Assembly: GCA_905181635.1 (NCBI GenBank)
Contig: CAJIYM010000002.1
Location: forward strand, 1-59,645
DNA length: 59,645 nt
Direction: 5' to 3'
Source of the DNA: an uncultured Flavobacteriales bacterium
Lineage (GTDB): Bacteria; Bacteroidota; Bacteroidia; Flavobacteriales; BACL11
Of the stretch, positions 5,998-58,542 are shown one piece after another; position 1 is the first letter of the stretch; each line of letters opens with the position of its first letter. The position numbers and the translations under genes were made by a program. The notes beneath the pieces were generated by a model. The model ran no database searches and was not told the origin of the DNA. It saw only the letters and a list, made by a program, of their open reading frames with translations.

Positions 5998-7296
5998 ATG
6001 AAAAGAGTCATTTTTATAGTAATCTTTGCTACATTATACCTCAACAGTTATAGTCAGTGCGATGCTCCAATTAATGTTTTTAATTCCAATATAAATTATT
6101 ATAATGCTGATGTAAATTGGAATTACCAAACAAATATTAATAATTATAGAATTCGCTACAAAAAAGTAGGAGACACAATATGGTCTTATAAGAATAATAT
6201 TGATTCAATAGCAATAACGAAAAATCTAAATAATTTAACACCACTTAACTATTATTTTTGGCAAATTAAAAGCTACTGTGACTCGTTAGGAACTAATTCC
6301 TCACAATGGTCTATTGCAGATACGTTTTACACAAGTACAATTAATTGCCCAAACATAATCGGACAATTCACCAATAATATAAGTTATGACAACGCTACAA
6401 CAAACTGGACAGTAAATACTAATGCAAATAGATATAAAATTCGATATAAAATTTATGGTACGACAATCTGGTCATATTTAGGACCTGTATACCATCCAAA
6501 TAACGAAAAAATAATCCCACTTCTACAACAAAACACAACATATGAATGGGGGGTAATGGCTTTTTATGACTCAACAACTCAATATGCGTCTTTATGGTCA
6601 ATTTCGGATACCTTCACCACATCTGTATTTATTGCCTCTGCATTTGACCCTAACATTTCAAATAGTCTTAACAACACAATCTGCAACACCTCCACAGATC
6701 TTACTTTATTTGTAAGCCAGTCGATAAACGAACCAGACATAGAAACATCAACGATAACATCAGATGGCGGATATTTTAATATTCAATCATTGACAATGGG
6801 GGACTCTGTTGGATATGCAATAATGGATTTAGCAACCCAAACAATATCAACAACCTTAAAAGTTGGAATTATCGCTGGACAGAACTATGCTTTAATAAAT
6901 TCATTTGATAGCACAGGAAGTATCATTGGATTTTTTGCAATAGAAAATGTGAGTAGCGGCATAAAAATAAGTTCAACATCGCCAAATGATGGGAATAGTT
7001 ATACTACAGGATTTACAAGCGAAATACATTTAACAAACCTATTTATCAATCCAAATATTAACGGACCTTTAAATTTCTATACCGATATTATATCTGAACT
7101 TAATGATCAGTTTAGCGACACAACAACAGTTATAATAGATTGTATGATTCATATTTCAGATAACAATACAGAGGAGAAATTAAACTTTGAAATCTATGAT
7201 TTGCTAGGTAGAAAAACAAAATTTATAGAGAATTCAGTACTTTTATATAAGTACTCAAATGGGGAAGTTAGAAAAATTTACACCCTAAAAAAATAG
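5998..7296 (+). CDS. Secreted protein with two fibronectin-III domains and a C-terminal sorting-like tail
   Basis: 432 residues with a signal peptide (1-20, cut before CDAP). Two FN3 repeats follow at about 21-113 and 116-209; both start Cys-x-x-(P/N) and share the YRIRYK..GDTIWSY / YKIRYK..GTTIWSY core and a W-S-I-(A/S)-DTF end. Residues 210-385 form a beta-rich domain I do not recognise. The last ~35 residues (YDLLGRK, then YKYSNGEV..KIYTL) resemble a variant T9SS C-terminal signal ending in a short beta hairpin. Inference: outer-surface or secreted adhesive/scaffold protein exported by T9SS. It stands alone behind its own promoter; its stop codon directly touches the tRNA-Arg gene on the opposite strand. 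Confidence 0.75.
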   Translation: MKRVIFIVIFATLYLNSYSQCDAPINVFNSNINYYNADVNWNYQTNINNYRIRYKKVGDTIWSYKNNIDSIAITKNLNNLTPLNYYFWQIKSYCDSLGTNSSQWSIADTFYTSTINCPNIIGQFTNNISYDNATTNWTVNTNANRYKIRYKIYGTTIWSYLGPVYHPNNEKIIPLLQQNTTYEWGVMAFYDSTTQYASLWSISDTFTTSVFIASAFDPNISNSLNNTICNTSTDLTLFVSQSINEPDIETSTITSDGGYFNIQSLTMGDSVGYAIMDLATQTISTTLKVGIIAGQNYALINSFDSTGSIIGFFAIENVSSGIKISSTSPNDGNSYTTGFTSEIHLTNLFINPNINGPLNFYTDIISELNDQFSDTTTVIIDCMIHISDNNTEEKLNFEIYDLLGRKTKFIENSVLLYKYSNGEVRKIYTLKK

Positions 7297-54990: not shown

Positions 54991-55749
54991 ATGAACAAAC
55001 AATTCCTTTTTAAGTTTAAAACAGATATATCTTGTGTGTATATTCCGTCAAAACTTAATAATCCTTTTAGTTCCAATCTTACGGAAATTGCAGAAATTGC
55101 GGCAAAAGAATTTCAAGAATTTATTACCTTAGAATCTAAAAAGTGGAATTACGATTTTAGTGTTGAAAGAGGTAAAATGTTTGGCGTTCTTGTAGTTAAA
55201 AAAAAAGATAATACTTATTTTTATTTAGGGACAGTATCGGGGAAATTACCTAAAGATGGTGTTTGCAAAAGATTTATTCCTTCTGTTTTTGATGAGTCTG
55301 TTGATGACTTTTTCATTAATAAAGGTATGGCTAAATTGAGTGAAATTGGAAATAAAATTAAACACTCCAACAATCCCTCTGAAATTATTTTTTTAAAGGA
55401 AAAAAGAAAAAAGAAGTCAGCTTCACTACAAAAAAAGCTTTTCGAAAATTATCATTTTGAAAATATTTCTGGAAAACAGAAAAATATATTAGCGATTTTT
55501 AATGACTCTAAGCAAGGTAAGCCACCTGCAGCCAGTGGCGAATGTTCCGCTCCAAAATTACTGCAATATGCCATTAAAAACCATTTAAAACCAATCGCCT
55601 TAACAGAATTTTGGTGGGGAAATTCTAATGAAAATAAAGACAAAAAACACAAGGCATACTACCCAGCATGTAAAAATAGATGCCGGCCAATTTTAGAATA
55701 TCTTCTAGAAGATGATGAATTGTTTATCAAAGAAGGTTTAGAAATATAA
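54991..55749 (+). CDS. Stand-alone N-terminal domain of RluA-type pseudouridine synthases
   Basis: 252 residues. By eye it matches the N-terminal extension of long RluA-family pseudouridine synthases: GKMFGVLVV (61-69), YLGTVSGKL, the FIPSVFD block (95-101), SASLQKKLFENYHFENISG (143-161), PPAASGECSAPKLLQYA (178-194), EFWWGNS (206-212) and YYPACKNRC (223-231). The catalytic domain with its RxxxD Asp is absent: the gene stops after LEDDELFIKEGLEI and only 81 bases separate it from the next gene. C185, C227 and C231 may bind a metal or iron-sulfur cluster (inference). Function unknown; it is unlikely to make pseudouridine alone. It has its own 72-bp upstream gap. Confidence 0.7.
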   Translation: MNKQFLFKFKTDISCVYIPSKLNNPFSSNLTEIAEIAAKEFQEFITLESKKWNYDFSVERGKMFGVLVVKKKDNTYFYLGTVSGKLPKDGVCKRFIPSVFDESVDDFFINKGMAKLSEIGNKIKHSNNPSEIIFLKEKRKKKSASLQKKLFENYHFENISGKQKNILAIFNDSKQGKPPAASGECSAPKLLQYAIKNHLKPIALTEFWWGNSNENKDKKHKAYYPACKNRCRPILEYLLEDDELFIKEGLEI

Positions 55750-57363: not shown

Positions 57364-57392
57364 CATTATAATCAACTGATTTTTTACAAAAT

Positions 57393-57419
57393 AAAAACCC
57401 GCTCTATGAGCGGGTTTTT
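57393..57419 (+). terminator. Rho-independent terminator after the ALDH gene
   Basis: AAAAACCCGCTC / GAGCGGGTTTTT stem with a three-base TAT loop, followed by further T's (57420-57422). Lies 30 bases after the ALDH stop. The T-tract runs into the next gene's -7 element. Confidence 0.92.
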
Positions 57420-57423
57420 TTTA

Positions 57424-57431
57424 TATTTTTG
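57424..57431 (+). promoter_or_regulatory. -7 element TATTTTTG before the PETase-like gene
   Basis: Perfect TAnnTTTG just after the terminator and four bases before the ATG at 57436, so any transcript would have almost no leader. No -33 box is seen because the terminator stem occupies that position; this makes the call tentative. Confidence 0.4.
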
Positions 57432-57435
57432 ATAA

Positions 57436-58542
57436 ATGATTATTTCTAGAAATTATATTATACCGCTGCTATTAATCATTCCTGTTTTTTCTTTTTGTCA
57501 AACTAATTCGGATTGTAGTGGTGTAACTATATCCTCAGCAACAGCTAACGGTAATTATAATGTAGCCTCTTATATAGAAAGTGATGGAATAAGGGATGGG
57601 GATGATTATGATGGATCAACAATCTATTACCCCCAAAATACTACTGGTTTATTGCCTAGTATTATTATTATTCCAGGTTATCTTAACCCAGAGTTAAGCA
57701 TTCAAGCTTGGGGTTCATTTTTAGCTTCTCATGGAATTGTGTGTATGACTATTGGTACTAATAGTATTTTTGATGAGGTGATGGATAGAAAAATAGCTCT
57801 AAAAGATGCTTTAATTAGTTTAAAAGCTGAGCAGGTTAGGGTTAATTCTCCTCTTTTTAATAACCTGGATACCAACCTAATTGCTCTTGGTGGGTGGTCA
57901 ATGGGTGGTGGTGGTGCTCAGTTAGTTGCAGTTGAGAATCCTAATATAAAAGCAATACTTGCTTTCTGCCCCTGGATTGATCCCGCGGTTGTTTCTCCTG
58001 CTTTAATAAACCATAGTACGCCAATTCTCATTTTTAGTGGACAAATTGATGTTGTAGCTCCACCAGGCGCTCATGCTGACGTACAGTACAATTACACTCC
58101 AAATTCTACAAAAAAACTTAAGTATGAAGTGTTTGGTGGAGGACATACAATTGCAAATACTCCTTTAGGGGGTTTTGGCGAGGTGGGGAGAATGGGTCTT
58201 TCTTGGTTAAAGAAATATTTAGTTAATGATAGTTGTTATTGTCCTTTGTTGTTGGATGCTCCAGCTACAGCATCTGATTATCAAACCAACATAGATTGCT
58301 CCATTATTAATGGTAATTCTGATTATAGTAATGATTTAATGATTTACCCAAATCCTGCCAACAATACAATTACCCTAAAGGGAACATTAAACAAAAACAA
58401 AAATTATAAAATTGTAAGTATTGATGGTAAGGTGATAAAAAAAGAAATCTTAAATACTTCTAATATTGATATTTCTGATTTAAAAAAAGGCATTTATTTT
58501 TTAGACTATGAAAATCAGAAAATGAAGCTAATTAAAAATTAG
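57436..58542 (+). CDS. Secreted PETase/cutinase-like polyester hydrolase with T9SS sorting tail
   Basis: 368 residues: signal peptide (1-21), alpha/beta-hydrolase domain (about 25-290) and a type A T9SS sorting domain (about 300-368; IYPNPANN, GIYFLDY). The catalytic triad is Ser155 in GWSMGGGG, Asp205 in SGQIDVVAPP and His237 in GGGHTIAN. Aligned from memory with Ideonella PETase, it also shares Tyr82 (IIPGYLNP), SIQAWGSFLASHG, GTNSIFDE, Trp180 (FCPW) and the C-terminal pair C267/C269 with C288. The second PETase disulfide is missing (S201 and I239 at those sites). Related Bacteroidota enzymes with PET activity and a sorting tail are known. It may hydrolyse natural polyesters such as cutin, or PET; activity is not proven. 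Its 3' end overlaps the M28 gene by four bases. Confidence 0.88.
   Translation: MIISRNYIIPLLLIIPVFSFCQTNSDCSGVTISSATANGNYNVASYIESDGIRDGDDYDGSTIYYPQNTTGLLPSIIIIPGYLNPELSIQAWGSFLASHGIVCMTIGTNSIFDEVMDRKIALKDALISLKAEQVRVNSPLFNNLDTNLIALGGWSMGGGGAQLVAVENPNIKAILAFCPWIDPAVVSPALINHSTPILIFSGQIDVVAPPGAHADVQYNYTPNSTKKLKYEVFGGGHTIANTPLGGFGEVGRMGLSWLKKYLVNDSCYCPLLLDAPATASDYQTNIDCSIINGNSDYSNDLMIYPNPANNTITLKGTLNKNKNYKIVSIDGKVIKKEILNTSNIDISDLKKGIYFLDYENQKMKLIKN

Follow-up and report, generated by a model that had tools for sequence, protein, structure and literature searches.

What does a PETase-like hydrolase do for a marine Flavobacteriales bacterium? One such gene lies at 57436..58542 (plus strand, as are all features of the gene given below) in the window, the whole 59,645-nucleotide stretch of DNA analysed here, which comes from an uncultured member of that order. 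The product shares its active-site residues with the Ideonella PETase (IsPETase), and the question is whether it serves to cleave PET or some other ester.

Gene and product

The reading frame runs intact from ATG to stop and encodes 368 residues. A signal peptide (residues 1-21; 57436..57498) is recognized from the sequence and alignment, with predicted signal peptidase I cleavage before Gln22 according to the Q-rule of Bacteroidetes (PMC5837995). The catalytic alpha/beta-hydrolase domain (residues 37-282; 57544..58281) matches Pfam PF12740, PETase, with E 2.2e-46 and 158.8 bits against a gathering cut-off of 28. Dienelactone hydrolase (PF01738) scores 16.6 bits, below its gathering cut-off of 21; similarity to Pfam Hydrolase_4 is weak, its score also under its own cut-off; and the NCBIfam BHET hydrolase model NF051441 gives 110 bits, short of its equivalog cut-off of 520. 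The protein ends in a T9SS type-A sorting domain, a seven-stranded beta sandwich (residues 303-365; 58342..58530) found by Pfam, NCBIfam, and modelling. With reading frame, signal peptide, PETase domain, and Por domain all present, the preliminary description of a secreted PETase-like hydrolase with a T9SS tail is borne out.

The upstream neighbor encodes an aldehyde dehydrogenase of the L-piperidine-6-carboxylate dehydrogenase family, and an M28 peptidase gene lies downstream on the opposite strand. A hairpin scan found a terminator-like structure with a 12-pair stem 3' of the dehydrogenase gene (57393..57419), a region retained in most members of the genus. Because this hairpin divides the two genes, the hydrolase gene appears to be its own unit. 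Just 5' of the ATG is TATTTTTG (57424..57431), a possible Bacteroidota −7 element. The TTTxTA.TTTT block at this place (window 57420-57438) is conserved in six species, even with a different upstream gene; judged from its sequence, it could be the Bacteroidota −7 box, in which case the leader would be very short or absent. A sigma-70 promoter scan gave a result no better than shuffles.

Export

The sorting tail is real by sequence (Por_Secre_tail: Pfam E 1.5e-12; NCBIfam E 3.6e-11) and by fold. AlphaFold2 models it as seven strands, with pLDDT 75-90 over most of its length. In a fold comparison covering residues 292-368, the translocon-bound NucA CTD of the T9SS ranks first (Z 8.9, rmsd 2.2, 68 residues, 28% identity); the mirolase and RgpB CTDs also match. 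A DUF3244 sandwich equals the NucA CTD on Z, but the assignment is firm despite this tie, because several T9SS CTDs are among the top matches and the sequence match agrees. Moreover, the genome encodes SprA (2669 bits) and 30 Por tails, and the window itself encodes PorW/SprE, PorZ, and a PorP-family protein. The step from tail to T9SS export, taken at the outset, is therefore well founded, and the hydrolase presumably reaches the cell surface.

Active site

Each residue of the catalytic triad (S155-D205-H237) and of the Tyr82/Met156/Trp180 set occupies its proposed position and matches IsPETase on alignment: Y82, W154, S155, M156, W180, D205, and H237 align with IsPETase Y87, W159, S160, M161, W185, D206, and H237, respectively (the IsPETase and LCC reference sequences were checked against PDB). 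Tyr82 (57679..57681), the clamp and oxyanion residue, corresponds to PET30 F80; the nucleophile elbow is G153-W154-S155-M156-G157 (57892..57906); Trp180 (57973..57975) corresponds to PET30 Y178; and catalytic Asp205 and His237 are at 58048..58050 and 58144..58146. The long blocks said to match IsPETase do so only in part (SIQAWGSFLASHG versus SIKWWGPRLASHG; TNSIFDE versus TNSTLDQ). The AlphaFold2 model of the catalytic domain has pLDDT ~30, both in the full protein and for the domain alone (five alignment rows), which leaves the tail as the usable part of the prediction.

Type II PETases, following Joo et al., reportedly have an additional active-site disulfide and an extended loop after the catalytic His. 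The loop is extended here: by direct count, 20 residues lie between the catalytic His and the conserved Trp, as in IsPETase, versus 17 in LCC. The disulfide is indeed absent, as first described, with G202 and I239 at its two Cys positions; the C-terminal Cys pair is kept too, although in a place analogous rather than identical to that in IsPETase. The distinguishing IsPETase pair S214/I218 is H213/Q217 in this protein. Likeness to IsPETase thus comprises the triad, the Y-W-M-W residues, and the type II loop length, whereas catalytic-domain identity of 32% (35% to LCC), the T9SS tail, and the lack of both the active-site disulfide and DxDxR..FxC set the two apart.

The last of these features bears on PET activity. 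Alam et al. 2025 (PMC12224614) found such activity only in ocean homologues with the last-helix motif DxDxR(Y)xxFxC; the Flavobacteriales-dominated ocean clades are M2-M4, and all tested M1-M4 proteins were PET-inactive. Applied as worded in that paper, the M5 motif is absent here, where the last helix reads VNDSCYCPLLL versus IsPETase DNDTRYSTFAC. Other features of M5 PETases are present: Met after the catalytic Ser, GGGG, PG[YF], and the triad. By its last helix, the window protein would belong to the pseudo-PETase class, and it resembles the Flavobacteriales M2-M4 pseudo-PETases of ocean metagenomes, compared by description, in its marine Flavobacteriales origin, triad, GGGG, PG[YF], and lack of the M5 helix motif. 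PET30, however, also lacks the motif on alignment and is weakly PET-active; failure of M5 therefore lowers the expectation of PET activity but does not exclude it.

Does the Tyr82/Met156/Trp180 set, singled out in the preliminary description, identify a PET hydrolase? Its residues are present, but its value as a marker is undercut by its distribution. Position 82 switches between Tyr and Phe or Trp at least seven times on the tree, and is fixed as Tyr within the genus in members where the position is covered. Y-M-W also occurs in two other family members (L032 and L044) on alignment, and had already been reported in Bacteroidota PET93 and PET94 (PMC13188925). In PET30, the mutations F80Y and Y178W abolished PET and BHET activity (PMC8767016). 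For these reasons the set is suggestive but not diagnostic of PET activity in the Bacteroidota PETase-like family.

Cys residues C27, C267, C269, and C288 are conserved across most of the family; C21 is predicted to be removed with the signal peptide. C27 and C267 are missing together in L017, and C269 and C288 are missing together in L048 and L049. These paired losses point to two disulfides, C27-C267 and C269-C288. The latter pair (58240..58242 and 58297..58299) equals PET30 C262-C285 by numbering and alignment (PMC8767016); compared with IsPETase C273-C289, its first Cys is four residues earlier, as in PET30. The additional Cys267 (58234..58236) adjoins this pair, and its likely partner is Cys27 (57514..57516). 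These two correspond to C260 and C25 of PET30, a pair that the PET30 paper does not report as a disulfide (PMC8767016). As only three sequences are informative, we infer the C27-C267 bond rather than assign it.

Relatives

The best PDB match is PET30 from Kaistella jeonii (7PZJ; phmmer E 4.5e-90, residues 7-367 including the tail), with 50% identity in the catalytic domain (residues 40-288). Both proteins have a signal peptide, PETase domain, T9SS type-A tail, GWSMGGGG elbow, C-terminal disulfide, and three-Cys pattern, and neither has the active-site disulfide. They differ in the clamp, which is F-M-Y in PET30 and Y-M-W here; in subclade; and in length, this protein being shorter by four residues after the CYC motif and longer by about five near residues 181-190. 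PET27 (Aequorivita sp.), compared by description, is likewise a T9SS-tailed esterase with the triad and one reported disulfide, but has an F-M-W clamp (PMC8767016). PET93 and PET94 (Maribacter and Arenibacter) are also secreted Bacteroidota proteins with Y-M-W, but lack a Por tail, are 433-434 residues long, and fall in a different subcluster (PMC13188925). PCL, Impranil, and BHET are substrates of both PET30 and PET27, which also hydrolyse PET, though slowly; PET27-PET30 all cleave polymeric PCL (PMC8767016).

In a maximum-likelihood tree of 42 rows, the Bacteroidota T9SS-family forms make up one clade (36 rows, 100/100), and IsPETase, BbPETase, Ple628/629, MG8, and LCC fall away from it. Pfam scores, the PDB match, and this tree do not place the protein among lipases or dienelactone hydrolases. 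This clade, the PET30 match, and the common architecture uphold the early assignment to the PET27/PET30 type. Within the clade, the window protein groups first with its own genus (100/99); the next to join are other genera of its family (98/89) and, after them, family f15 (99/95), in a subclade outside the PET30/Flavobacteriaceae branch. (Over the tree region, the G838 copy, L036, does not differ from PET30.) The protein does represent a different lineage, as was suggested, in that it lies outside the sampled Flavobacteriaceae and Weeksellaceae relatives. Homologues in the sampled genomes occur in its own genus, in other genera of its family f1, and in the same-order families f15, f3, and f6; none of 394 other genomes, evenly drawn across the phylum, contained a further one. 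The named relatives are Flavobacteriales/Cryomorphaceae MAGs, which we take to be marine.

Sister proteins from further genera of this family (L014-L020) have a different active site. In them, GFSKGGGG replaces GWSMGGGG and HD replaces HT/HS after the catalytic His (W154F, M156K, T238D, and N241S on alignment), so that the triad is kept but the oxyanion and clamp residues are remodelled; these proteins may form a distinct enzyme group. A tree with this GFSK clade outside all other Bacteroidota forms is rejected (p-AU 1.7e-5, for a group named after tree inspection). Active-site remodelling therefore arose next to this genus, and the remodelled sisters imply that substrate range shifts quickly around this branch.

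The C-termini of L014-L020 also carry a short tail, IxDLxGRxT...YxYxxGxxxKxxxx, without a YPNP start. The same tail ends the product of window 5998-7296 (plus strand), a secreted protein unrelated to the GFSK clade. It is possibly a shortened T9SS sorting signal.

Locus history and pathway

The hydrolase is under purifying selection, with dN/dS about 0.1: catalytic-domain values are 0.07-0.15 among five species, and those for the tail and signal peptide are higher. The order ALDH7 - hydrolase - M28 is kept in L027, L028, and L030, and dS between species at this site is about 0.8. One retained site and this synonymous divergence imply a gene older than plastic. Losses have occurred as well: two in-frame stops make the G004 copy (L026:122-1228) a pseudogene, and the site holds no gene in G011 and other genes in G013 and G012. 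Pseudogene, empty or replaced sites, purifying selection, and dS together describe a useful gene that the genus can do without, and one with a history longer than that of plastic. Stop-codon recoding in the G004 copy was considered and rejected: the stops, TAG and TAA, are at W92 and Q203 only, and the contig neighbors read normally. G005 carries a diverged second type (L065:3-1586, 72%) with a long, possibly fibronectin-like insert before the T9SS tail; a remnant is present in G011 (L066).

The ALDH7-M28 site is variable across the genus (L063, empty; L061; L062; L029; versus window 57364-58538). It holds the hydrolase with or without a pirin-like gene, a lipoprotein gene, various other genes, or no more than a gap of 18 bp. 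Nearby, window 54991-55749 (plus strand) encodes a 252-residue protein that matches neither Pfam nor NCBIfam; it is conserved in L029 but missing at the corresponding position in L027, L028, and L030.

Could the genus use the products of PET? No tannase/MHETase match was found in 14 genus genomes; no control genome gave a match either, and the absence of MHETase is therefore weak evidence. Ring_hydroxyl_A was found in none of the six copy-bearing genomes (G000, G001, G002, G004 with its pseudogene, G006, and G007), with positive controls, in a set where several genus MAGs are incomplete and the window's own genome is 70% complete. A 362-residue Ring_hydroxyl_A protein is present in G003, G005, G008, G011, and G012, all without an orthologous hydrolase at the site; this split probably reflects clade structure rather than function. 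Given the absence from copy-bearing genomes, the known dioxygenase route is unlikely to support growth on terephthalate.

Function

Together, these results favor, with a probability of about 0.8, a serine polyester or ester hydrolase of the PET27/PET30 family, exported by the T9SS and likely acting on a natural ester. The remodelled active site of the GFSK sisters counts against this reading. Improbable by comparison is a true PETase, adapted to PET through IsPETase-like clamp chemistry and used by the bacterium on plastic. The identity of Y82, W154, M156, W180, and the triad to IsPETase, the type II-like loop, and the PET-active relatives PET27 and PET30 (PMC8767016) all speak for it. Set against these are the missing M5 motif, together with the inactivity of ocean M1-M4 proteins (PMC12224614); H213 and Q217; the lability of Y82, with its seven changes; the missing Ring_hydroxyl_A and, for what its negative control allows, MHETase; and a gene that predates plastic.

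Somewhat less probable again is a generic secreted lipase, esterase, or dienelactone hydrolase that cleaves small soluble esters and no polymer. The GFSK sister clade illustrates a fold retooled within the same family, and weak DLH and Hydrolase_4 similarity points the same way; both of these scores are under their cut-offs, however, with PETase 130 bits above its own. Fixed clamp residues in the covered members of the genus, T9SS export, which fits a macromolecular or particulate substrate, and PCL cleavage by all of PET27-PET30 (PMC8767016) also argue against it. That the gene is a decaying or inactive relic in this genus, as the stops in G004 and the related fragments beside an empty site in G011 might suggest, is very hard to reconcile with an intact window copy, all catalytic residues in place, and dN/dS about 0.1 across five species.

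As a T9SS-exported ester hydrolase, the protein would be carried out by Sec and cleaved before Gln22 by signal peptidase I. Its C-terminal domain would dock on the type IX translocon, and the enzyme would cross the outer membrane, to be released or fixed to the cell surface. Outside the cell, S155-D205-H237 would attack ester bonds in a cleft that is open and has no lid, with an oxyanion hole formed by the backbone of Tyr82 and Met156, and with Tyr82, Trp154, and Trp180 stacking on the substrate. The two candidate disulfides would fasten the N-terminus and the last helix, replacing the active-site disulfide of IsPETase. The enzyme's physiological role is most likely to cleave natural esters or aliphatic polyesters present in seawater, for example lipids, PHA, or cutin-like polymers, and it may hydrolyse PET or BHET weakly as a promiscuous side reaction.

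Perspective

What is new is the lineage; the T9SS PETase-like (PET27/PET30) family itself is already described. That family now reaches a small-genome marine Flavobacteriales genus, and the proposed bond between N-terminus and last helix would add a feature absent from the PET30 paper. It is a long shot that the Y-M-W form of this genus is a polyesterase displayed through the T9SS, adapted to cold, tolerant of salt, and truly more active on PET than PET30. If true, marine Flavobacteriales would have gained PET hydrolysis, with neither M5 nor the active-site disulfide, on a branch other than that of PET30.

The Y-M-W genus, the GFSKGGGG sister clade from its own family, and the F-M-Y or F-M-W PET30 branch form a natural contrast set. 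With it one can test which residues determine polyester activity among Bacteroidota enzymes, and whether M5 truly divides PETases from pseudo-PETases.
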